64,000 bases of DNA. Origin: Egicoccus sp. AB-alg6-2. GTDB taxonomy: Bacteria; Actinomycetota; Nitriliruptoria; Nitriliruptorales; Nitriliruptoraceae. The stretch covers positions 310,001 to 374,000 of the forward strand of contig NZ_JBGUAY010000004.1 in the NCBI RefSeq assembly GCF_041821025.1. The letters are read 5' to 3'. The notes under the pieces were generated by a model. It was not told the origin of the DNA and ran no database searches. It saw only the letters and a list, made by a program, of their open reading frames with translations. Shown here one piece after another: positions 1,554 through 48,476 of the stretch. The translations under genes were made by a program, and so were the position numbers. Within the stretch, counting starts at the first letter, position 1. Each line of letters begins with the position of its first letter.

Positions 1554-4500
1554 TCAGGTCAGGGCCGGTTCCCGCTCCCGTGAACGTCGCCACCGTGGCT
1601 CGTCGTCCTCGGCGCCGAAGGTCTTGTCGCCGGCGTCGTCGTCGACCGAGTCGGGGCCGAAGGCGGCCTTGATCTCGCCGAAGAGCCCGGGGCGCCGTTC
1701 GACGCGGAGATCGTCCCCGAGTCGGTAGGTCCGGCTGGCGCCGTCGGGCGTGCGCACCTGCAGGTGCACCGGGACGGCGCCCTGGTGGTGCACCAGGACG
1801 TCCTTGAGGCGGCGGACGGCATCGGCGGTGCACTGTTCGGCGGCGAAGCGCACGACGACCGGCGACCCGAGCGCCTCGGACAGGTCGGGGGCCGACACGC
1901 GGTTGGCCTGCAGCTTGATGGCCTCGTCGCGGATCTCGAGGCGCCCCGTCACGACCAGCACCGCGTCCTCGACCAGCACCTCGTGGGCGGCGCGGTAGGT
2001 GTTCGGCCAGAAGACGACCTCGACGTTACCGGTGAGGTCCTCGAGGGTCGCGACCAGGTAGGTGTCGCCCTTCTTCGTGAACTTCTTGGTCAGGCCGGTG
2101 AGCACGCCGCCGACGGTGACGTTGTCGGAGTCGTTCTTCTCGCGCAGGCCGGCGCAGCTGGTGTCCACGTGGCGTTCGATCACCCGCTCGGTGCCGAACA
2201 GCGGATGGTCCGAGACGTACAGGCCCAGCATCTCGCGCTCGAACTTGAGCAACTGCGACTTGTCGAACTCGTCGCCGGGGATCTCGGGCGCGTCGTCGAG
2301 GTCGACCGCGTCACCGCCGCCGTCGTCACCGAACAGCGACAGGAACCCGGCGGCCTCGTCCTTCTTCGCCTTCTGGGCCGTGTCGACCATCAGCTCGTAG
2401 ACCGCGAGCAACCCCTTGCGCGTGTGTCCGAGCGACGAGAAGGCCCCCGCGAGGATCAGGTTCTCGATCGTGCGCTTGTTCAGCACGCTGCCGTCGACCT
2501 TGGCACAGAAGTCGGCGAAGTCGGCGAAGACCCCCTTCTCGGCGCGGGCGCGCACGATCTGCTCGACGATGCCCTCGCCGACGCCGCGGACGGCGGACAG
2601 GCCGAACAGGATCTCGTCCCCACGGGGGGTGAAGTCGCTGCCCGAGGTGTTGATGTCGGGCGGGAGCACGTCGATGCCCATGCGCCGACACTCGTTGAGG
2701 TACAGCGGCTTGTTGTCCTTGTGGTTCTTCACGCTGGTCAGCAGCGCCGCCATGTACTCGACCGGGTAGTGGGCCTTGAGCCAGGCGGTCTGGTAGCTGA
2801 TGACGCCGTAGGCGACCGTGTGCGACTTGTTGAACCCGTACTCGGCGAACTTCTCGATCAGCCCCCACAGGTTGGACATCAGCGCGCGGTCGTAGCCGTT
2901 GGCGACGCCACCGGTGATGAACTGGTCCTTGAAGGACTCCATCAGGTCGCGCTTCTTCTTGCCGACCGCCTTGCGCAGACCGTCGGCGTCCGACATCGTG
3001 AAGCCCGCCAGGTCGGTGGCGATCTTCATGACCTGTTCCTGGTAGACCACGATCGCGTAGGTGTCGCCGAGGACCGGTTCGAGGTCGGGGTGGTCGAAGG
3101 TGACCGCTTCCTGACCGTTCTTGCGGTTGGCGTAGGCGATGTGCATGTCCATCGACAGCGGACCCGGCCGGTACAGCGCGAGCAGGGCCGAGATGTCGTC
3201 GAACCGCGTCGGTCGCAGCTTCCGCACCAGGGCCTGCATGCCGGTCGAGTCGAGCTGGAACACCCCGAGCGTGAACCCGGTGGAGAGCATCTCGTAGGTC
3301 GTGGGGTCGTCCATGTCGCCGAGCAGTTCGGCGTCGTCGAGGTCGACCTCGATGCCGCGGTTGGCCTTGATGTGCCGCTCGGCGTCGGAGATGACCGTGA
3401 GGTTGCGGATGCCGAGGAAGTCCATCTTCAGCAGACCGATGGCTTCGGCCGCGCCCATCTCGTACTGGGTGACGATTTCGCCGTTGTCGGTCTTGAGCAG
3501 CGGCACGATCTCGTCGAGCGGTGACGCCCCGATGATGACCGCGGCGGCGTGGATGCCGTGCTGGCGCTTGAGGCCCTCGAGCTTCTCGGCGGTCTCGAGC
3601 ACCTTGCGGTAGGTCGGGTCGTTGCGTGCCTCACGCAGCTCGGAGGACTTCTCGTACGCCTCGGCGAGCGGCGCCTCCTTGCCCTGCACCGGTGGCGGCA
3701 TCATCTTGCAGAGCGTGTCGCCGACGCTGAAGGGCTCGTCGAGCACCCGGGCGGCATCGCGGATGGCCGACTTGGCCTTGATCGTGCCGAAGGTGACCAC
3801 CTGTGCGACGTGGTCGTCGCCGTAGCGCGACGCGGCGTAGCGGATCATCTCGCCGCGACGGCGGTCGTCGAAGTCGATGTCGATGTCGGGCATCGAGATG
3901 CGGGCGGGGTTGAGGAACCGCTCGAAGATCAGGCCGTACTTGATCGGGTCGACCCGCGTGATGTCGGTGCAGTAGGCGACCACGGACCCGCCGGCGGAGC
4001 CGCGGCCCGGGCCGACGCGGATGCCCGCGCTGCGGGCGTACTCGCACAGGTCGGCGACGATGAGGAAGTAGGCCGGAAAGCCCATGTCGTTGATGACGCC
4101 GAGCTCGTACTCGATGCGCTGGGCGACGGCGTCGGGCACCGGGTCGCCGTAGCGGGCCTTGGCGCCCTCCCACACCTTGTGGGCGAGGAACGCCGCCTCG
4201 TCCATCCCCGGTGGGCAGGGGAACTTCGGCAGCAGGTCGAGGTCGAACTCGATCCTGGCGTCGCACATCTCGTTGATGTCGAGCGTGGCGTCGAGCGCGT
4301 CGCGGTACTGGTGGTACTGCTCGCGCATCTCGCGGGCGGTCTTGACGTAGAACTGGTCGCCGGAGAACCGGAACCGGTCGACGTCGGAGATCTTCGAGCC
4401 GGTCTGGATGCACAGCAGGACGTCGTGTGCCTCGGCATCCTCGGCGTTGGTGTAGTGCGAGTCGTTGGTGATGACGGTGCGGAGCCCGAGCTCCTTGGCC

Positions 4501-5102
4501 AGCTTCTCGAGCACCGGCCAGGTCCGCTTCTGCTCCTCGATGCCGTGGTCCTGCAGTTCGACGAAGAAGCGCTCGGCGGTGTAGATGTCCCTGAAATCGC
4601 TCAGGACCTGCCTCGCCTCGGCCTCGTCGCCCTTCAGCAGGGCCTGGTTGACCTCGGATCCGAGGCATCCCGACAGCGCGATGATGCCGTCGCTGTGCCG
4701 GGCGAGCAGTTCCTTGTCGACGCGCGGCTTGTACCAGTAGCCGTCGAGGTAGGCCTGCGTGGACAGCTTGACCAGGCTGCGGTAGCCGGCGTCGTTCTGG
4801 GCCAGCGTCGTGAGGTGGAAGTACCGCTGGCGGCCGTCGGACCCGCCCAGGCGCTGGTCGCGACGCGAACCGATGGCCTGGTACAGCTCCGAGCCGAGGA
4901 TCGGGTTGACGCCCCTGGCCGTGCCCTGCCGGTAGAAGTCGGCCAGCCCGAACAGCACGCCGTGGTCGGTGATCGCGACCCCCGGTTGCTCGTCGCCGGC
5001 GACCTTGTCGAACAGCTGGCCGAGCCGCGAGGCACCGTCCAGCATCGAGTACTCGGTGTGCACGTGCAGGTGGACGAAGCTGTCGCGGCTGCCACTACCC
5101 AC
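1554..5102 (-). CDS. dnaE: DNA polymerase III alpha subunit (replicative, DnaE1 type)
   Basis: Catalytic subunit of the replicative polymerase. With GTG 5102 as start the protein is 1182 aa, the usual DnaE1 size. This start has GGGGAG 9 nt upstream; the open frame runs on to 5432, but that would overlap map by about 100 nt and add sequence foreign to the family. The order is classical: an N-terminal PHP domain with an intact metal motif (H11, H13, H15 in HLHVHTEYS), the palm with the catalytic acidic cluster PDIDIDFDD (D406, D408), then thumb, fingers, helix-hairpin-helix and a C-terminal OB domain (around TVGGVLTGLTKKFTKKGD). The intact PHP histidines contrast with the degenerate PHP of dnaE2 in this window. 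It stands alone between map and the LDT gene. Confidence 0.96.
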   Translation of the reverse strand: MGSGSRDSFVHLHVHTEYSMLDGASRLGQLFDKVAGDEQPGVAITDHGVLFGLADFYRQGTARGVNPILGSELYQAIGSRRDQRLGGSDGRQRYFHLTTLAQNDAGYRSLVKLSTQAYLDGYWYKPRVDKELLARHSDGIIALSGCLGSEVNQALLKGDEAEARQVLSDFRDIYTAERFFVELQDHGIEEQKRTWPVLEKLAKELGLRTVITNDSHYTNAEDAEAHDVLLCIQTGSKISDVDRFRFSGDQFYVKTAREMREQYHQYRDALDATLDINEMCDARIEFDLDLLPKFPCPPGMDEAAFLAHKVWEGAKARYGDPVPDAVAQRIEYELGVINDMGFPAYFLIVADLCEYARSAGIRVGPGRGSAGGSVVAYCTDITRVDPIKYGLIFERFLNPARISMPDIDIDFDDRRRGEMIRYAASRYGDDHVAQVVTFGTIKAKSAIRDAARVLDEPFSVGDTLCKMMPPPVQGKEAPLAEAYEKSSELREARNDPTYRKVLETAEKLEGLKRQHGIHAAAVIIGASPLDEIVPLLKTDNGEIVTQYEMGAAEAIGLLKMDFLGIRNLTVISDAERHIKANRGIEVDLDDAELLGDMDDPTTYEMLSTGFTLGVFQLDSTGMQALVRKLRPTRFDDISALLALYRPGPLSMDMHIAYANRKNGQEAVTFDHPDLEPVLGDTYAIVVYQEQVMKIATDLAGFTMSDADGLRKAVGKKKRDLMESFKDQFITGGVANGYDRALMSNLWGLIEKFAEYGFNKSHTVAYGVISYQTAWLKAHYPVEYMAALLTSVKNHKDNKPLYLNECRRMGIDVLPPDINTSGSDFTPRGDEILFGLSAVRGVGEGIVEQIVRARAEKGVFADFADFCAKVDGSVLNKRTIENLILAGAFSSLGHTRKGLLAVYELMVDTAQKAKKDEAAGFLSLFGDDGGGDAVDLDDAPEIPGDEFDKSQLLKFEREMLGLYVSDHPLFGTERVIERHVDTSCAGLREKNDSDNVTVGGVLTGLTKKFTKKGDTYLVATLEDLTGNVEVVFWPNTYRAAHEVLVEDAVLVVTGRLEIRDEAIKLQANRVSAPDLSEALGSPVVVRFAAEQCTADAVRRLKDVLVHHQGAVPVHLQVRTPDGASRTYRLGDDLRVERRPGLFGEIKAAFGPDSVDDDAGDKTFGAEDDEPRWRRSREREPALT

Positions 5103-5221
5103 GGGTGCACGCTCCCCGGTCTCGTCGAGCACGTCGGACGCGACCCACACGGCAACCTGCGCCGTGCAGCGTCGATCACGGCGGGGGTTCTCGGGGAAGG
5201 GCCGGCACGACGCCGACGCCA

Positions 5222-39537: not shown

Positions 39538-40806
39538 TCACGCGTCGTCGAGGCGGCGGTCCTCCGCGGTCGGTGCGGCCTCGGGTTCCTCCTCGTCGAG
39601 CAGTGCGGCGTAGGACACGCCGATGCCACGGAAGCGTTCGGCGACGCTGTCGGCCACACGTTCGACGTCCTCCCAGCGGCGGTCGCCCCACGCCGCCGAC
39701 TCCTCGCCGGCGTCCAGGGGGAACAACTCCGTCGGGGCGTCGAGCGCGAGTTGGCGGGCCGCGTCGCCGTCCCCGAGGTTGGAGACGCCGACCCCGAGCA
39801 ACCGGACCCGTGCGCGCTCGAGGCGCAGGCCGTCGAGGAGGCCGCCGGCCACGGTGACCAGGTCGTGGGTCCGATCGGTCGGCGCCCGCAGCGTGGACGA
39901 GCGCGTCACGGTCTCGAAGGAACCGAACCTCACCTTCAGCGTGATCGTGCGTCCCGAGAGTCCGGCCTTGCGCAGGCGCCGGCCCACCTTCTCGCACAGC
40001 CGCAGCAGCTGCCGGCGCAGGACGTCGGGGTCGTCGATGTCCTCGTCGTAGGTCTGTTCGGCGGACACCGAGCGGGTCGGGTTGACGGGGGTGACCGACC
40101 GCGGGTCCTCACCCCTCGCCAGGCGGTGCAGGTGGGTTCCCGTCACGTCGCCCACGACCCGCTGCAGCGTCCGCAGGTCGGCGTCGGCGACCTGGCCCAC
40201 CGTCGTGAACCCGTAGTCGGCCAGCCGCTCGACGGTCTTCGGTCCGGCCCCCCACAGCTCCGCGACGGGCAGGGGCCGCAGGCGGTCACCGACCTCGGCG
40301 GCGGGCCAGTGCAACAGCCCGTCCGGTTTCGCCCTGGCCGAGAGCAGCTTCGCGACCGACTTCGTCGGGCCGATCCCGACGGAGCACGGCAGCGCCAACT
40401 GTTCGCGGACGTCGGCGCGGATCCGCTGTCCGATCTCGGTCGGCGAGCCGAACAGGCGGACCGCGCCGGCGACGTCGAGGAAGGCCTCGTCCAGCGAGAG
40501 CGGCTCCACCAGCGGGGTGTAGTCCCGCAGGATCGACATCACCTGTCGCGAGACCTGGCGGTAGACCTCGAACCGATGTCGGGCGACGACCAGGTCCGGG
40601 CACAGCCGCCGGGCGCGGACCATGGGCATGGCGCTGCGGACGCCGAACCGGCGTGCCTCGTAGGAGGCGGCGGCGACGACGCCGCGGTTGCCCGCTCCAC
40701 CGACCACGACCGGGCGACCGCGCAACGACGGGTCGTCCCGCTGCTCCACCGAGGCGAAGAAGGCGTCCATGTCGACGTGCAGGATCGGTTCGGTGACGAC
40801 CGACAC
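39538..40806 (-). CDS. dinB: DNA polymerase IV (Y family)
   Basis: Translesion polymerase of 422 aa. The catalytic carboxylates are D12 in HVDMDAFFASVE and D106-E107 in SLDEAFLDV. The thumb helix-hairpin-helix (LWGAGPKTVERLADYGF) and little-finger domain are complete. A C-terminal acidic tail without a clear clamp-binding QLxLF sequence follows. GTG 40806 has GGAGG 6 nt upstream. The frame continues above it, through the LexA box, but is non-coding there. The upstream LexA box makes it an SOS gene, in line with the dnaE2 locus 6 kb away. Confidence 0.94.
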   Translation of the reverse strand: MSVVTEPILHVDMDAFFASVEQRDDPSLRGRPVVVGGAGNRGVVAAASYEARRFGVRSAMPMVRARRLCPDLVVARHRFEVYRQVSRQVMSILRDYTPLVEPLSLDEAFLDVAGAVRLFGSPTEIGQRIRADVREQLALPCSVGIGPTKSVAKLLSARAKPDGLLHWPAAEVGDRLRPLPVAELWGAGPKTVERLADYGFTTVGQVADADLRTLQRVVGDVTGTHLHRLARGEDPRSVTPVNPTRSVSAEQTYDEDIDDPDVLRRQLLRLCEKVGRRLRKAGLSGRTITLKVRFGSFETVTRSSTLRAPTDRTHDLVTVAGGLLDGLRLERARVRLLGVGVSNLGDGDAARQLALDAPTELFPLDAGEESAAWGDRRWEDVERVADSVAERFRGIGVSYAALLDEEEPEAAPTAEDRRLDDA

Positions 40807-40842: not shown

Positions 40843-40858
40843 TCGAACGGACGTTCGC
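40843..40858. promoter_or_regulatory. LexA (SOS) box of dinB
   Basis: TCGAACGGACGTTCGC matches the Gram-positive LexA operator TCGAAC-N4-GTTCGA at 11 of 12 fixed positions. It covers the predicted dinB transcript start: TACGCT (40870-40865) is the -10 just upstream on the dinB strand. It lies 36 nt above the GTG start. Confidence 0.85.
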
Positions 40859-41777: not shown

Positions 41778-42452
41778 TCAGGCGGCCGAGCTGTCGAGCC
41801 CCGCGACCTCGAGGGCCTCCGTGAGGGTGTCGACCACCGGGACTCCCACCGCCTCGAGTTCGGCCCGGGGATGCGAGCCGCCGTCGTAGAGGATGCAGCG
41901 CGCCCCCACGTGGTCGGCGGCCAGCGCATCGTCGATGGCATCGCCGACGACCAGGATCTGGTGGGGGGCGGCGCCGGTCACGGGCAGGACATGACGCAGG
42001 TGGGCTTCGAGGTGCGGCGCCTTCGGTCCACCGCCGGGGCCCCGCAGGCCGTCGATGCGCAGGAAGCGGTCGTCGATGCCCAGCCGCTCCACGAGCGGCA
42101 CGAGCTCACGGTGGCGATACATCGACAGCAGGGACTGCGACCGACCCAGCCGCGCCACCCGGTCGAGCGCCACCTCGGCGTCCACGGCCAGGCGCGCCCG
42201 CTCGAGTGCCGTCGCGTAGCCGTGGTGGTAGACGTCGTCGAGGCGGTCCCACTCGTCGTCGGAGATCGCCCGCTCGAACAGCCGCTCGTAGAAGGTCTTG
42301 ACCGGGCGGGTGTACAGCCGCTGGTAGGTCGCCAGGTCCGTCGGTGGCAGACCGCGGTCGGCGAGGACGGCGTTGAGCGCCTCGACGACCAGCAACTGGT
42401 CGTCGAGCAGCGTGCCGTTCCAGTCCCAGACCAGATGTCGGATGTCGGTCAT
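41778..42452 (-). CDS. HAD-superfamily hydrolase
   Basis: 224-aa HAD hydrolase with an alpha-helical cap. Motif I reads DWNGT (D10, W11, N12), so the usual second aspartate that acts as acid/base is Asn. Motif II lies around LLSMYRHRE, and motif IV is VVGDAIDDALAA with acidic metal ligands. A phosphatase or phosphonatase-like role on a small molecule is expected, and the Asn may alter it. ATG 42452 lacks a ribosome site but has TAGCCT eight nt above it, suggesting a leaderless transcript. Confidence 0.85.
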   Translation of the reverse strand: MTDIRHLVWDWNGTLLDDQLLVVEALNAVLADRGLPPTDLATYQRLYTRPVKTFYERLFERAISDDEWDRLDDVYHHGYATALERARLAVDAEVALDRVARLGRSQSLLSMYRHRELVPLVERLGIDDRFLRIDGLRGPGGGPKAPHLEAHLRHVLPVTGAAPHQILVVGDAIDDALAADHVGARCILYDGGSHPRAELEAVGVPVVDTLTEALEVAGLDSSAA

Positions 42453-42463
42453 GACGGGGCAGG

Positions 42464-42949
42464 CTACTGGTTGCAGGGCACGGGCCCGTCGACGCGGTCG
42501 GCGGCGACGTAGGCGTCCTCGCGGTCATGGCGGCCGTGCCCGTCCCGCGAGTCGTAGCGGGCGATGGCGAGCCCGCGCTCGATCAGCCGGAGACCGGCGT
42601 CCGTGCCGTCCACGTCGAGGTAGCGCAGCAGACGGTCGTAGCGGTCGCGGTCGTCGCGGGCTCCCGCGACCAGGTCCACCTGCCGTCCGTCGACGAGGTC
42701 GGCCATGGCGGCGGCAGCCTCGACGTAGCCGCACTCGCCTCGTTCGGGCGTGTCGATCCCGATCACCCGGATGCGCTCCTCGGTGCCGTCCGCGGCCCGC
42801 ACGTCGACCGTGTCGCCGTCGACCACGTGCACCACCGTCCAGCCAGGTTCGGTCACCGTGGCGTCCCGACCGGCCGGGGGCAGGCAGGCGCTCAGCAGCA
42901 CGCCCATCACGGCCAGGAACGCCAGCACGGCGCTCAGCGTGTCGCGCAT
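42464..42949 (-). CDS. thermonuclease-like (SNase) lipoprotein
   Basis: 161-aa secreted nuclease of the staphylococcal-nuclease fold. The signal peptide ends in the lipobox LLSAC with C22 the lipidated residue, so it should be anchored outside the membrane. VVDGDTVDVRAADG and RVIGIDTPERGECG are the SNase core, and YDRLLRYLDVDGTD-like sequence carries the catalytic Arg. ATG 42949 follows GAGGA by 6 nt. The HAD gene begins 11 nt after its stop. Confidence 0.88.
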   Translation of the reverse strand: MRDTLSAVLAFLAVMGVLLSACLPPAGRDATVTEPGWTVVHVVDGDTVDVRAADGTEERIRVIGIDTPERGECGYVEAAAAMADLVDGRQVDLVAGARDDRDRYDRLLRYLDVDGTDAGLRLIERGLAIARYDSRDGHGRHDREDAYVAADRVDGPVPCNQ

Positions 42950-43065: not shown

Positions 43066-46000
43066 TCAGCGGCTGCCGCGACCGAACTCGGAGGCGTACA
43101 GGCCGGCGGGACGGCTGACCGGGCGTTCGTGCGGGGCGGGCGTGCCACGTTCGGCCAGCGCCGCCTCCAACCAGCCCTCCTGCCAGGCCCGCCACAACCG
43201 CGACAGGTCCCAGGCGCGGGTGCCCGTCACGGTCGCACCCATGCGTCCGCGGCGTGACACCCGTCCCTCGGCGACCAGCAGCCAGGCGTGCAGGACGGTC
43301 CAGGCACAGTCGTCGAGGTGACGCTCGAAATAGGTGGTCTGGGTCGTGCCGGTGCGGTCGTCCAACGACAGGAACAGCACCCGCTGTCCGGAGCGCTGCG
43401 CCGGCGACTGCACCGCGACCTTGACCCCGGCGACCCGGACCGTGGACTGGGTCGGCAGCCCCTGCAGGTCGCACGCGCGCACCACCCCCAACGCCTCGAG
43501 CAGCGGCTCGTAGAAGCTGATCACGTGCCGGCTGACGTCCATGCCCGAGACCGCGAGCTCGGCCCGGACCCGGTCGGCCGCCCGGTCCTCGGGCAACTGC
43601 GGGGTGTGATCGGCGTCGAGGTCCATCGCGGTCTGCTCGACCCGGTGGGCGCCGACGGTCGCCGCGGCCCGGCGGCGTCGCCCCGCTCCCGCCCACAGTT
43701 CCTCGACGGCCAGTCGCAGGGCCCGGCGGCCGTTCGGACCACCCCGACGCCCGACCCCGGCGACCTGGTCGAGCGCGCCGACCTCGGCCAGGGCCTCGGT
43801 GGTCGGGCGGGACAGGCCGCCCCGCTCGCGCAGGTCGGCCAGCGAGGTGAAGGGGCGGCCGCCCAGCAGCGCCTCGACCTCGGCGTCGGTGATGCCTCGG
43901 ATGTCCTGCAGGCCGATGCGCACGGCGTAGCGGTAGCCGTTGCCGGCCTCGCCGCTGTCGAACCCGGTCGGCGGCACCGGGCGCGGCACCCGGACGGCCT
44001 TCGGTGCCTTGCCGGACTTGGGGCGTGGCACCTTGCCGGCGGTCACCTCCTCCGGCCAGGTCCAGCCCGGTGGCAGGTGCGGCGCCGGGTCTTCGCCGCG
44101 CTGGACCGCGCGGACGGCGGCGGTCAACCCGAGCAGGTGGTCGGCCAGGCCGCGGTCGACCACCTCGACGGTGTACGGCCCGATCGAGCGGTTGACGTCG
44201 GCGGGCAGCACCGCCACCCCGAACAGGCGGCACTCGTCGAGGATCATCCGGCGCGGGTACATGCCGGGATCGTGGGTGAGCAGGCCCGCGGCGAACTCGG
44301 GGAACACGTGCGCCTTGAGGAACGCCGAGCGGTAGGTCGGCACCGCGAACGCGGCCGCATGTGCCTTGCAGAACCCGAACGAGGCGAACGACGCGACCTG
44401 GTTCCAGATCCGCTCGGCGTCCTCGCGGGTCAGCCCCCGGTCCAGCGCACGGGCCACCACCCAGCCACGGATCGCGGCCAGCTTCCTCGGGTCGGACAAC
44501 TGCCGCCGCAGCAGGTCGGCGTAGGCGAGGTCGCAGCCGGTGATCGCCGCCAGCACCCCCATGACCTGCTCGTGGTAGACGATCACGCCGTGGGTCTCGC
44601 CGAGGACCGGCTCCAGGCACGGGTGCAGGTAGGTGGTTTCCTCCTCGCCGTGCCGGCGGGCGACGTAGGGGGTGACCATGTCGGCCTTGACCGGGCCGGG
44701 ACGGAACAGCGAGATCTCGGTGACGAGGTCGCCGAACCGGTCGGGCTGCAGGCGGCCGAGCAGCTCGCGCTGGCCGGGTGACTCGATCTGGAACATCCCG
44801 ACCGAGTGGGTCGAGCGGATCAGCGCGTAGGTGTCCGCGTCACCGCCCGGGATCGCGTCCATCGACAGCCGGCCCCGGCCGTCCCGTCCCGGCAGCGCCG
44901 GGTCCGCGTCGCGGGTGGCGGGCAGCCCCGCGGTCCCGTCCCCGTTGACCAGGCCGAGGGCGTGGGACATGGCCGACAGCATCCGTACCCCCAGGACGTC
45001 GAGCTTGAGCAGGCCGAGCGCAGCCACGTCGTCCTTGTCGAACTGGCTCATCGAGTAGCCGTGGGCCGAGCGCTCCAACGGCGTGCGCGAGGTCAGGTCG
45101 CGATCGCCGAGCAGGATCCCGCACGGGTGCATCGCGAGGTGGCGTGGGAACCCGTCGATGCGCTCGACCAGGTCGAACAGCCGGGTCAGCTGCCCGGCGT
45201 CGAGACGGCTGTTCTTCAGCTCGGGCAGCCGGTCGACGGCGGTACGCGCGTCGCGGGCACGGGTGTGGTGGAAGCCCTTGGCGACCAGGTCGATCTCCTC
45301 GGGCGGCAGGCCGAGCACCTTGCCGACCTCGCGCACGGCCATGCGGGCCTGGAAGGTCTCGACCATGGCGACGCACGCGGTGCGCTCTTCGCCGTACCGG
45401 GCCATCACCAGGTCGTAGACGTCCTCGCGCCGGTGTGACTCGACGTCGAGGTCGATGTCGGGCAACTCGTCGCGGTAGGGGTTCATGAACCGTTCGAACG
45501 CGAGGTCGTTCGCGATCGGGTCGACGTCGCTGATGCGCAGCGCGTAACAGACCAGGCTGCCGGCGGCCGAGCCGCGACAGGCGATCAGCACGCCGAGTTC
45601 GCGCACGTCGGCGACGATGTCCGACACCGCCAGGAACAGGTCGTGCAGGCCGAGCTGGTCGATCATCGCCAGTTCGTGCTCGAGGCGTTCGCGCACCGCC
45701 GGGGTGATCCGGGTGTAGCGCTGTGCCGCGCCGGACCAGCAGCGCTGGTGCAACTCCCCCGCCGCCACCTCGGCCGACAGTCCCGACAGCCGCGGTACGT
45801 GCAGGCCGCCGAGCCCGAGGTCGACGTCGCAGCCTGTCGCGAGCTCGTGGGCGGCCACCAGCAGGTCGGGGCGTTCCCGGAACCGTTCGTGCTGGTCGGC
45901 GGCGCTGGTGAACCACGCCTCGGCGGTGGCACGACCGAGATGGTGACGACCCAACGGCACCTGCTGGCGCACACAACGCAGCACGTCGGCGACCGCGGCG

Positions 46001-46890
46001 TCGTCGGGGGTGAGGTAGCGCACGTCGTTGACCGCGGCCGCCCGCACCCCGAGGCGGCCGGCGATCTCGAGCGTCCGCCGGATACGGGTGTCGTCGCCGG
46101 GTTCGGCCAGGTCGTGGCCGCCGGCACCGCTGGCCAGCGACCGCCGCCCGCCCGGCGCGACCCGGTGGTTGCGCACGCCCAGCACCACGTCGTCACGGCC
46201 GAACACCTCGAGCCAGTGGCGCAGTTCGACCTCGGCCGCGTCGAGGTGGCCGCGCGCGACCAGGCGCCCGAACGGCGAGTCGACCCCGAGCACCGCCACC
46301 ACCCCACCCGAGGCCGCCACGTCACCGAGCGCGTCGGCGGGCAGGTGCGGGTCGCTGCGCGCGTCGGCATGCGCCGCGCTGACCGCCCGGCACACCCCGC
46401 CGTACCCCTCCCCGTCGCGCGCCAGCAACGTCACCCGCGCGGCGTCGTCCTCGAGCCAGCCACCACCCCTGCCCGGACGCGCCTCACCGGGATCGCGGAC
46501 GCGGCCGCCACGGGTGCGCTCCCAGCCGGCGCGCGCATCGGGGGCGAGGGCAAGGTCCGTGCCGAACACGGGGGTCACCCCTTCGGCGGCGCAAGCCTGG
46601 GCGAACCGGACCGCGCCGTAGAGCCCGTCGCGGTCGGTGATCGCCACGTGGGTCATGCCGGCGGCGGCCGCGGCGGCCGCCAACTCGCGCGGACGGATCG
46701 CCCCGTCACGCATCGAGTACGAGGTGCGGGCGCTCAGGTGCGCGAACGGTGGCGTTCCGGGTGGCGCGGGCCTGGCCCTGCCGGCCCGGTACAGCGCCTC
46801 GGCGGCTTCGGCCGCCCGGTGCACGTCGACCTCGTGGTCCTCGACCGACGCCTCGTGCTCCTGGGGCGACCAGCGACGGGTGGCCGCCAT
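43066..46890 (-). CDS. dnaE2: error-prone DNA polymerase III alpha (DnaE2/ImuC)
   Basis: SOS-induced C-family polymerase used in damage tolerance and mutagenesis. It is 1274 aa from ATG 46890, which overlaps the DUF6504 stop in a TGATG. The palm has LPDIDLDVESHRRED, with catalytic D478 and D480, and the C-terminal OB domain has VRVAGVKVAVQS. The PHP domain is degenerate: the HxH motif that is HLHVH in DnaE1 reads HLSAR here (H51 kept, the next two His lost), so no exonuclease is expected. It is longer than typical DnaE2 because of a Gly/Arg-rich region near 130-160 and a longer C-terminal part. imuA and imuB were not found next to it. Confidence 0.94.
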   Translation of the reverse strand: MAATRRWSPQEHEASVEDHEVDVHRAAEAAEALYRAGRARPAPPGTPPFAHLSARTSYSMRDGAIRPRELAAAAAAAGMTHVAITDRDGLYGAVRFAQACAAEGVTPVFGTDLALAPDARAGWERTRGGRVRDPGEARPGRGGGWLEDDAARVTLLARDGEGYGGVCRAVSAAHADARSDPHLPADALGDVAASGGVVAVLGVDSPFGRLVARGHLDAAEVELRHWLEVFGRDDVVLGVRNHRVAPGGRRSLASGAGGHDLAEPGDDTRIRRTLEIAGRLGVRAAAVNDVRYLTPDDAAVADVLRCVRQQVPLGRHHLGRATAEAWFTSAADQHERFRERPDLLVAAHELATGCDVDLGLGGLHVPRLSGLSAEVAAGELHQRCWSGAAQRYTRITPAVRERLEHELAMIDQLGLHDLFLAVSDIVADVRELGVLIACRGSAAGSLVCYALRISDVDPIANDLAFERFMNPYRDELPDIDLDVESHRREDVYDLVMARYGEERTACVAMVETFQARMAVREVGKVLGLPPEEIDLVAKGFHHTRARDARTAVDRLPELKNSRLDAGQLTRLFDLVERIDGFPRHLAMHPCGILLGDRDLTSRTPLERSAHGYSMSQFDKDDVAALGLLKLDVLGVRMLSAMSHALGLVNGDGTAGLPATRDADPALPGRDGRGRLSMDAIPGGDADTYALIRSTHSVGMFQIESPGQRELLGRLQPDRFGDLVTEISLFRPGPVKADMVTPYVARRHGEEETTYLHPCLEPVLGETHGVIVYHEQVMGVLAAITGCDLAYADLLRRQLSDPRKLAAIRGWVVARALDRGLTREDAERIWNQVASFASFGFCKAHAAAFAVPTYRSAFLKAHVFPEFAAGLLTHDPGMYPRRMILDECRLFGVAVLPADVNRSIGPYTVEVVDRGLADHLLGLTAAVRAVQRGEDPAPHLPPGWTWPEEVTAGKVPRPKSGKAPKAVRVPRPVPPTGFDSGEAGNGYRYAVRIGLQDIRGITDAEVEALLGGRPFTSLADLRERGGLSRPTTEALAEVGALDQVAGVGRRGGPNGRRALRLAVEELWAGAGRRRRAAATVGAHRVEQTAMDLDADHTPQLPEDRAADRVRAELAVSGMDVSRHVISFYEPLLEALGVVRACDLQGLPTQSTVRVAGVKVAVQSPAQRSGQRVLFLSLDDRTGTTQTTYFERHLDDCAWTVLHAWLLVAEGRVSRRGRMGATVTGTRAWDLSRLWRAWQEGWLEAALAERGTPAPHERPVSRPAGLYASEFGRGSR

Positions 46891-47180
46891 CAGTCCCAGA
46901 CGCGGTCGAGACGCCAGGTCTCGCCGCGCCGGACCAGCTCGTACACCCCACGTGCCGGTTTGCCGTTGGCGGCTTCCACCCGCCACAGGTCGGTCTGCTC
47001 GATCTGGACCGGCTCGCCGTCCGGGCGTCGCCACCAGCCCGGGTCCTCGCGCCAGTGGCCGAGCACCTGCAGCACCTGGTAGCGGTTGCCCCGCCAGGTG
47101 AAGGCGCTCGGTGCCGTGCCGTCGGTGCCGGTCGTGGGAAGTTCGACCTCCTCGATGGTCTCGCGGTATCGCTTGCTCAT
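46890..47180 (-). CDS. DUF6504 family protein
   Basis: 96-aa protein of the DUF6504 family, which in actinobacteria accompanies dnaE2 and imuB genes. MSKRYRETIEEVEL near the N-terminus and WRVEAANGKPARGVYELVR with TWRLDRVWD at the end are typical. ATG 47180 is preferred because the family starts at MSKRY, although in-frame ATGs at 47192 and 47213 are possible. It overlaps dnaE2 by 1 nt and sits directly behind a perfect LexA box, so its product is probably part of the mutasome. Activity unknown. Confidence 0.85.
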   Translation of the reverse strand: MSKRYRETIEEVELPTTGTDGTAPSAFTWRGNRYQVLQVLGHWREDPGWWRRPDGEPVQIEQTDLWRVEAANGKPARGVYELVRRGETWRLDRVWD

Positions 47181-47223
47181 GGTGTCCGCCATCCGGTTTC
47201 CGCCGCCCGTCATGGGCGTGTCA

Positions 47224-47239
47224 TCGAACGTGTGTTCGA
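47224..47239. promoter_or_regulatory. perfect LexA (SOS) box of the DUF6504-dnaE2 operon
   Basis: TCGAACGTGTGTTCGA is a perfect TCGAAC-N4-GTTCGA palindrome. On the operon strand TACGGT (47256-47251) upstream is the likely -10, so LexA bound here would cover the transcript start and leader. It lies 43 nt above the preferred DUF6504 start. Confidence 0.93.
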
Positions 47240-47320
47240 GTGAAGCCGGCACCGTACGACGCGGCTGGGACACCCGCCAGCGAACGACCCCCGCCGCCCG
47301 CGCGGCGCGCAACCCCGCGC

Positions 47321-47490
47321 ACCACCTCGACTTTCGTGTCCCCAGCCGAAAGTTGGGCTCCCCGGCCGGCCCGGCCCCCAACACCACCTCGACATTCGTG
47401 TCCCCAGCCGAACGTGGAACCGCCCGGCCAGGCCCGGACACCTGCAGGCCGCCCGGTTTCGTGCCCCCAGCCGAACGTTGGAACCGCCCG
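47321..47490. repeat. three tandem 62-63 bp hairpin repeats
   Basis: Three copies whose cores start at 47331, 47393 and 47456. Each core has TTTCG or ATTCG, then TGTCCCCAGC (TGCCCCCAGC in the third), then CGAAAG or CGAACG, forming a short inverted repeat with a C-rich loop. Copies 1 and 2 share ACCACCTCGAC upstream; copies 2 and 3 share GGAACCGCCCGGCC downstream. They fill most of the 318-nt gap between the LexA box and the end of the OpuAC-like gene. Not coding. Confidence 0.8.
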
Positions 47491-47498
47491 GCCGACGG

Positions 47499-48476
47499 TC
47501 AGGCGGGTGGGGGGTCCTCGGGGAGGGTGCGGCGGGCGCGGACGAACAGTTCCCGAGCCGCCTCCTCGGCGACCTCCTCGACCGGCTCGCCGGCCAGGAC
47601 CCTGGCGTTCCAGCTCCCGAGCAGCGCCGTCGTCAGCTGCGCCGCCATCGGCCCGAGCGCGACCCGCACCGCCGGCTGGTCCTCGATCACCTCGGCCCGC
47701 ACCTGCGGCAGCGGCACGAACGCGGGGAAGACCCGCAGGTCGTCGATCAACGGGCGCAGACCCGCCCGCCACGCGGCGCCGTCGGTCGCCGTGGTGAGCC
47801 CGGCGAGGCAGTCCCCGGCGGCGACCCCGCGCACCGCCTCCTCGGGGTCGGCGGCGAGGAACTCGCGGTCGCTGCGCACGCTGTAGGCCTCGAGGACCGC
47901 CCGCAGCCCGTCCACGCGGGTGCCGAACTCCTGGTCGACGCACACCCGGGCGTCGGGCTGCTCGGACAACCGCCGGGCGAGGTCGGACAACGTGCGCAGG
48001 TCGGCGCCCGCGGCCGGGGGGCCGAGCACCACGAACGCGAACGTGGCGTTGGCGGGTGGCGCGTCCAGGCTGCCGTCCCGGAACTGCGGCCGGAGCCAGA
48101 TCAGGCCCTCGTCCTCGTCGTGGTCGCGCACGGCCATGAAGCTCGCCCGCGGATCGCCCGGCGGGTCGGCTCGTCCCAGGGTCTCGAGCCATGCCTCGCC
48201 GGTGTAGCCCGTCCGCACGTCGACATCGCCGAGCTCGAGGGCCTGACGGGCGTCGCGCGCGTCGCTGAAGGTCACGAGCTCCCCCGCCAGTCCCGACAGC
48301 TCCAGCAGCGCCAGCATGGTGTGGGCGAGCACCTCCGTCTCGGGCTCGGCCCCGCTGGCGATCCGGAGGGGCGTGGGAGGCGGCTGGTCGGGATCCTCGG
48401 TGGCGGCGGGCACGCCGGGGCCGGCCTGCGAGGTGCAGGCGACGAGAAGCACCAGGAGACACAGCCAGCGACGCAC
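47499..48476 (-). CDS. OpuAC-type glycine betaine/choline-binding lipoprotein
   Basis: Solute-binding protein of the quaternary-amine ABC family, 325 aa. The signal peptide has the lipobox LVAC near residue 14, so it should be a membrane-anchored extracytoplasmic receptor. ATLGRADPP-like sequence and DEDEGLIWLRPQ resemble the OpuAC domain 2. GTG 48476 gives a compact MRRW start, but GTG 48494 and ATG 48521 are in frame and cannot be excluded. No permease or ATPase gene lies nearby, so it is an orphan, perhaps serving a transporter elsewhere or acting as a ligand sensor. Confidence 0.82.
   Translation of the reverse strand: MRRWLCLLVLLVACTSQAGPGVPAATEDPDQPPPTPLRIASGAEPETEVLAHTMLALLELSGLAGELVTFSDARDARQALELGDVDVRTGYTGEAWLETLGRADPPGDPRASFMAVRDHDEDEGLIWLRPQFRDGSLDAPPANATFAFVVLGPPAAGADLRTLSDLARRLSEQPDARVCVDQEFGTRVDGLRAVLEAYSVRSDREFLAADPEEAVRGVAAGDCLAGLTTATDGAAWRAGLRPLIDDLRVFPAFVPLPQVRAEVIEDQPAVRVALGPMAAQLTTALLGSWNARVLAGEPVEEVAEEAARELFVRARRTLPEDPPPA

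Follow-up and report, generated by a model that had tools for sequence, protein, structure and literature searches.

A standalone ImuB-C (DUF6504) gene joined to dnaE2 behind a LexA-type box in Nitriliruptorales

Introduction

ImuB has several jobs at once, with the clamp, with ImuA and with DnaE2, and DnaE2 systems are the driving force of damage-induced mutation in a number of bacteria. In mycobacteria, the C-terminal region of ImuB binds ImuA and DnaE2 (PMC6511836), and AlphaFold models of the M. tuberculosis complex put ImuB-C on the PHP domain of DnaE2 (PMC12926913). Mycobacterial DnaE2 reportedly has no clamp motif and relies on the one in ImuB, 352-QLPLW-356, which falls outside ImuB-C (residues 422-525; PMC11791113). 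The locus described here resembles the ImuA-ImuB-DnaE2 mutasome in having DnaE2 and an ImuB-C domain under a LexA-type box but differs from it in that ImuB-C is a separate protein and that searches detected no ImuB body and no ImuA.

The domain has carried the name ImuB-C since 2013, when a function was proposed for it and its standalone form was reported (PMC3765255); its operons followed in print in 2019 and 2021 (PMC6511836, PMC8072749). As described in 2013 (prototype Geobacter GSU0042), it spans about 80-100 residues, is beta-rich, has a conserved C-terminal tryptophan and positive residues, and can be encoded by a standalone gene beside an error-prone polymerase gene (PMC3765255), all of which the present protein shares. 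Damage induces the Geobacter lexA-imuB-C-polY operon, whose genes share a single transcript (PMC6511836); the partners are lexA and a Y-family polymerase in that prototype, whereas here the partner is DnaE2.

Closer still are the DnaE2-[ImuB-C] complexes predicted in 2026 and reported there to be found only in Actinobacteria (Timinskas et al. 2026, PMC12926913). The present actinobacterial locus agrees with the predicted DnaE2B-[ImuB-C] and DnaE2B-[ImuB-C]-PolY-RecA complexes in its dnaE2 with a standalone ImuB-C, in that no ImuA or ImuB was found, and in a nearby Y-family gene whose product has intact catalytic motifs and a tail judged RecA-NT-like by eye. It differs in that this Y-family gene, dinB, is 2.3 kb from dnaE2 and has a LexA-like box of its own, and Arthrobacter alpinus and Tessaracoccus lapidicaptus, examples named in that paper, are not Nitriliruptorales. 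In both Deinococcus plasmids examined, lexA, a gene for an IMS protein (411-417 aa) that lacks DUF6504, a gene for an 80-aa DUF6504 protein and dnaE2 follow one another in that order, and UV mutagenesis in D. deserti is reported to need ImuY and DnaE2. Deinococcus shares with the present locus LexA control, predicted here, and a separate ImuB-C gene just before dnaE2, but it has a gene for an ImuB-like inactive polymerase, of which none was found in the present genome, and its DnaE2s fall elsewhere in the tree. Two features of our data, a class-wide break-up of the operon with separate boxes and a clamp-like motif in ImuB-C-linked DnaE2s, were not found in the cited literature, supplements excepted, and we do not claim newness for either of them; the Nitriliruptorales case is otherwise expected from the published predictions.

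Results

Within the window, that is, the whole 64-kb stretch of DNA analysed, the DUF6504 gene lies at 46890-47180 on the minus strand (96 aa by ORF translation) and is followed on the same strand by dnaE2 (43066-46890), which encodes a C-family polymerase of the DnaE2 kind of 1274 aa. The two genes meet in a TGATG junction (46888-46892, minus strand), in which the DUF6504 stop codon TGA (46892-46890) and the dnaE2 start codon ATG (46890-46888) have one base in common. A LexA-type box, TCGAACgtgtGTTCGA, occupies 47224-47239, with 43 bp between it and the DUF6504 start codon downstream. A preliminary description of this DNA had given the 96-aa gene, the junction with dnaE2 and the position first behind the LexA box, and the sequence bears out all three. 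The two genes may be translationally coupled; the TGATG overlap is rare, occurring at 6 of the 62 places in a phylum sample that have dnaE2 within 6 kb. No sigma-70-type promoter was recognised in 46700-47600, and an Rfam scan of 46800-47700 returned no structured RNA.

Downstream, dinB (39538-40806, minus strand) encodes a Y-family polymerase with intact catalytic motifs, and residues 382-403 of its product, ERVADSVAERFRGIGVSYAALL (39598-39663, minus strand), form a C-terminal stretch judged RecA-NT-like by eye from the motif in PMC6511836. Its LexA-like box, with one mismatch, lies at 40843-40858, 36 bp upstream of the gene. The interval between dnaE2 and dinB holds a SNase-family nuclease gene (42464-42949) and a HAD hydrolase gene (41778-42452), both on the minus strand, as well as a glyoxalase-family gene on the opposite strand. 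Elsewhere in the window, about 38 kb off, a second DnaE polymerase (1926-5141, minus strand), 33% identical to DnaE2, is probably the replicative DnaE1. Three copies of TTCGTGTCCCCAGCCGAAMGT, one with a single mismatch, were observed in the interval from the end of an OpuAC-type gene to the DUF6504 promoter region (47333-47353, 47395-47415 and 47458-47478, plus strand, 62-63 bp apart), and the first of them extends to an inverted repeat with perfect 7-bp arms. The 18-bp core of the three copies does not recur elsewhere in the genome at up to one mismatch, the other 245 loci contain no exact copy, and relatives gave only three scattered two-mismatch matches to a 16-bp core.

The 96-aa protein matched Pfam PF20114 (DUF6504) at 47 bits, the curated cut-off being 24.2. 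When eight plasmid ImuBs were searched, DUF6504 was found at the C-terminus of two above the cut-off (Sphingomonas and Methylocapsa, both called 'DUF6504 family protein' in the NCBI annotation), of two more below it (Gluconobacter and Agrobacterium) and of none of the other four. An hhalign comparison of 32 standalone proteins with the eight ImuB tails gave 96.4% probability (E 1.1e-9), against 1.6% for reversed tails and at most 0.3% for ten column shuffles. Because of these C-terminal matches and the alignment to ImuB tails, DUF6504 is, by sequence comparison, the domain described as ImuB-C by Aravind et al. 2013; they reached the link to ImuB by other searches (PMC3765255). The label of unknown function in the preliminary description is partly outdated, the domain having been named in 2013, and is correct insofar as its function is still a proposed one (PMC3765255). 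Literature under the name DUF6504 was not found. Among 14 control genomes searched for DUF6504, Caulobacter alone matched, presumably within its ImuB, and the named relatives closest in DUF6504 are metagenome-assembled genomes labelled Actinomycetota, Nitriliruptoraceae and Nitriliruptorales.

In an alignment of DUF6504 proteins (A1), W89 is invariant and R30 and R67 are conserved at 90% or more. AlphaFold2, run with 33 sequences, gave an all-beta model (pLDDT 90.9, pTM 0.80). A PDB sequence search with the protein returned no match to E 10 and Foldseek with the model nothing at E 0.001 or better; the best structural candidate from VIA-align, an affimer (Z 5.8, rmsd 3.4 over 72 residues), was within the chance range and was rejected. 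The fold is therefore left without an assignment and is not put forward as new. These results accord with the statement that ImuB-C has no closely related PDB structure (PMC12926913), an absent match showing nothing by itself.

The dnaE2 product is a DnaE-type polymerase whose PHP domain (Pfam; residues 51-241, 46168-46740, minus strand) corresponds to the ImuB-C binding surface predicted in PMC12926913, and its top NCBIfam model is 'error-prone DNA polymerase', at 674.5 bits under a cut-off of 939 bits. In a tree of 34 proteins, none of them a reference labelled DnaE2B, it groups with ImuB-C-linked actinobacterial DnaE2s and with those of Streptomyces and Embleya. Eight ImuB-linked DnaE2s form a separate clade with 100/100 support, and the Deinococcus DnaE2s lie on that clade's side. 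A motif scan and alignment revealed a clamp-like motif, QTAMDL, at residues 1086-1091 (43618-43635, minus strand). At one aligned site, Qxx[LMFI] is present in 45 of 50 assessed DUF6504-linked DnaE2s (4 rows gapped), compared with 9.3% of random stretches of the same lengths. A scan of the 96 residues of the DUF6504 protein found no clamp motif of the QxxLxL or QLxLF kind. The motif in DnaE2, taken with the dependence of mycobacterial DnaE2 on ImuB, suggests that clamp docking may rest with DnaE2 itself in the ImuB-C-linked system.

The box at 47224-47239 is the sole exact match to TCGAACN4GTTCGA both in the window and in the 3.74-Mb genome. A control pattern likewise has one exact match genome-wide, so the perfect box, taken by itself, could be a chance match. 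At one mismatch, the genome has 62 matches to the LexA pattern and 11 to the control. Across the phylum sample, a box with at most one mismatch was found within 300 bp upstream of DUF6504 at 66 of 100 assessed places (of 104, one was too short and three were fetched after the assessment), compared with 0.8% of 4452 random stretches from the same loci. Conservation of the box upstream of DUF6504 is beyond chance. The box was also present in 30 of 38 assessed named loci, whose genomes overlap with the 100-place set; one of these (L159) was scored negative though another locus on the same contig (L105) shows a box, the L159 match starting later, and the count was left unchanged. By its conserved SOS box, DUF6504 would belong to the LexA regulon, and the DUF6504-dnaE2 operon is predicted to be SOS-induced.

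The preliminary description had proposed genome-context statistics for DUF6504 across actinobacteria. The phylum sample comprises 296 genomes, 102 of which have DUF6504; it occurs in them at 104 places (the window and 103 others), and the neighbourhoods of all 104 were examined. On the same strand, dnaE2 lay within 1 kb at 54 of the 104 places and within 6 kb at 62, and it was never on the opposite strand (0/104). A further 14 places have a Y-family gene within 1 kb, with lexA upstream in 11. The other 28 showed no dnaE2 and no Y-family gene close by in the stretch examined. Of these 28, 13 are from the class (dnaE2 being more distant or on a separate contig), 3 are at contig ends and 12 are left unexplained; ten of these 12 are matches below 32 bits, and the two in G213 (56 bits) and G275 (44 bits) are stronger. 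Because of these 12 places without a polymerase neighbour, DUF6504 is not tied to DnaE2 everywhere. Conversely, among 70 random genomes without DUF6504 and from outside the class, five, all of one family and 7.9-9.9 Mb in size, have a similar DnaE2 (at least 569 bits; next best 427), and therefore this type of DnaE2 can do without DUF6504. These five are consistent with the Streptomyces-type DnaE2B without ImuB-C described in PMC12926913.

Two groups of outlying DUF6504 matches were also observed. A Thermaerobacter plasmid (L034:5950-6201) carries a strong match (58 bits) with no polymerase gene among its annotated neighbours within 6 kb, near P-loop NTPase and toxin-antitoxin-type genes. In the central stretches of four loci (L116, L120, L122 and L124), divergent DUF6504-like proteins of about 105 aa have a longer N-terminus, and their loci lack a LexA-type box as well as any dnaE2 or Y-family gene within 6 kb; the proteins are perhaps a separate DUF6504 branch with another role.

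Of the 27 genomes sampled from the class, 23 carry DUF6504. The DnaE2 search took in 24 of the 27, the three left out having dnaE2 directly behind DUF6504, and a DnaE2 at least 53% identical to that of the window was found in all 20 DUF6504-bearing genomes searched. In 14 of the 20 the two genes share a contig and a strand, always with DUF6504 first and dnaE2 0 to 17 kb after it, and in 6 they are on different contigs; such counts of gene order and boxes across relatives are not independent observations. An earlier assignment of 13 class DUF6504 genes as unlinked was dropped, dnaE2 lying 6.5-17 kb downstream on the same strand (7) or on another contig (6). Two class genomes (G024 and G289) have DnaE2 and no DUF6504 match.

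Boxes also precede dnaE2 in the class. Of 17 dnaE2 starts, mostly from genomes where DUF6504 and dnaE2 stand apart, 16 had a box with up to two mismatches in the roughly 140 bp before the first matched codon (12 had one with up to one mismatch), compared with 5.2% of random 320-bp stretches holding a box with up to two mismatches. The one start without a box is that of G289; the dnaE2 of G024 has one. In the window, no site with up to three mismatches lies between the dnaE2 start and the box shared with DUF6504. The separated genes of the class are each boxed, and this pattern is what selection for joint damage control would be expected to leave, with the reservation that the relatives are not independent.

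The only IMS-family match in the genome is dinB, and no ImuB was found in this 98% complete assembly; the same IMS model scored all eight tested plasmid ImuBs over the cut-off. An Agrobacterium ImuB query gave no match in the genome at E 10, an empty result that alone shows nothing, and an ImuA query only one at E 0.087. By these searches the genome is without ImuA and ImuB, a gap being possible at 98% completeness. Of the 22 class genomes with this DnaE2, 18 have a Y-family gene downstream of dnaE2, no more than about 8 kb away and on the same contig and strand; in 3 it is on another contig, and in 1 none was found. Catalytic motifs are retained in the class DinBs, nearly all of which have a RecA-NT-like stretch at their end (alignment, by eye), and DinB is a probable third member of the module. 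In the phylum sample, dnaE2 and a Y-family gene occur together in 37 of 62 places, in 34 of them on the DUF6504 strand.

Several ImuB candidates were inspected in the relatives. G075 and G194, which have no DUF6504 match, encode DinB and, in frames of 549-552 aa, a weak IMS match that is ImuB-like in size; these proteins gave no match to the DUF6504 or ImuB-tail HMMs at E 0.1, and the G075 tail is ImuB-C-like by eye despite the negative HMM searches. A strict rule of either ImuB or free ImuB-C is opposed by these two HMM-negative proteins and was not retained. The ORFs downstream of dnaE2 that had been labelled imuB by weak match proved DinB-like, with catalytic motifs, in the 11 inspected, and a weak IMS match in G151 (21.9 bits) was rejected as ImuB on inspection. 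One further protein, in L137, looks like an ImuB body.

Discussion

Family membership, homology to the ImuB tail, gene order, boxes and the failure to find ImuB are computed results. On their analysis, we hold with considerable confidence that the DUF6504 protein is a standalone ImuB-C acting as a damage-induced accessory subunit of DnaE2 under LexA; a role as polymerase helper is proposed because the gene encodes a free ImuB tail in an operon with an error-prone polymerase. The suggestion in the preliminary description of an ImuB-like adapter gains support from the same homology and from the linkage to dnaE2. In the mechanism that we propose, ImuB-C and DnaE2 would be made from one LexA-controlled transcript, and DNA damage would release the operon through RecA-driven cleavage of LexA, the same cleavage releasing dinB via its separate, weaker box. 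ImuB-C would contact DnaE2 physically, docking most likely on the PHP domain, and would stabilise or license the polymerase for translesion synthesis, with an effect on mutagenesis. For access to the clamp, DnaE2 would use the motif that it carries itself, and DinB, with its RecA-NT-like tail, would be a likely third partner.

Other roles can be considered for the DUF6504 protein. The preliminary description also offered clamp binding, which would make it an adapter between DnaE2 and the beta clamp, the part that full ImuB plays, and full ImuB does supply the motif for the motif-less DnaE2 of mycobacteria (PMC11791113). Here that idea fares badly and seems very improbable: the 96 residues are devoid of such a motif, that of mycobacterial ImuB lies outside ImuB-C (PMC11791113), and the linked DnaE2s carry Qxx[LMFI] far above the random rate. 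Aravind et al. 2013 proposed that ImuB-C binds DNA, recognising damage and guiding various repair enzymes to it. The conserved arginines R30 and R67 fit such a sensor, as does the range of its neighbours, which include unrelated SOS polymerases (dnaE2, a Y-family polymerase with lexA, and ImuB fusions) and Ku/ligase and photolyase genes (PMC3765255). Against it, the protein of the window has a net charge of -1 and a pI of 5.9, unusual for a general DNA binder, the 61 members near dnaE2 average a charge of +0.3 (27 negative, 22 positive, 12 neutral), and published models use ImuB-C for protein contacts (PMC12926913). Because of this near-neutral charge, the DNA-binding role is not favoured here, and we think it unlikely.

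ImuB-C may instead bridge DnaE2 and a RecA-loaded DinB, the unit being DnaE2, ImuB-C, DinB and RecA as in the Tessaracoccus-type prediction. This is compatible with the DnaE2-accessory role and extends it. The frequent Y-family gene after dnaE2 in the class and the phylum sample, the catalytic motifs and RecA-NT-like tails of the class DinBs, and the LexA-like box of the window dinB all speak for a bridge; the nuclease and hydrolase genes that separate dnaE2 from dinB in the window speak against it, as do the 25 of 62 places at which no Y-family gene was seen, many of those stretches ending early. Such a bridge seems to us only a little short of an even call.

Returning to the accessory role, a wider proposal can be made for the Nitriliruptoria, which we put forward tentatively and would not ourselves expect to hold in full. 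Their mutasome, without ImuA and ImuB, may consist of three proteins, a DnaE2 equipped with a clamp motif of its own, a separate ImuB-C whose only part is to activate or license that DnaE2, and a DinB that is catalytically active and brings in RecA, with selection keeping gene order and LexA control after the break-up of the operon so that each part has its box. If true, this three-protein mutasome would separate the clamp-docking and polymerase-licensing roles that are combined in ImuB. An operon that keeps only the last domain of ImuB beside a DnaE2 with a clamp-like motif would be a natural dissection of ImuB, in which the contribution of ImuB-C by itself to an error-prone polymerase can be studied.
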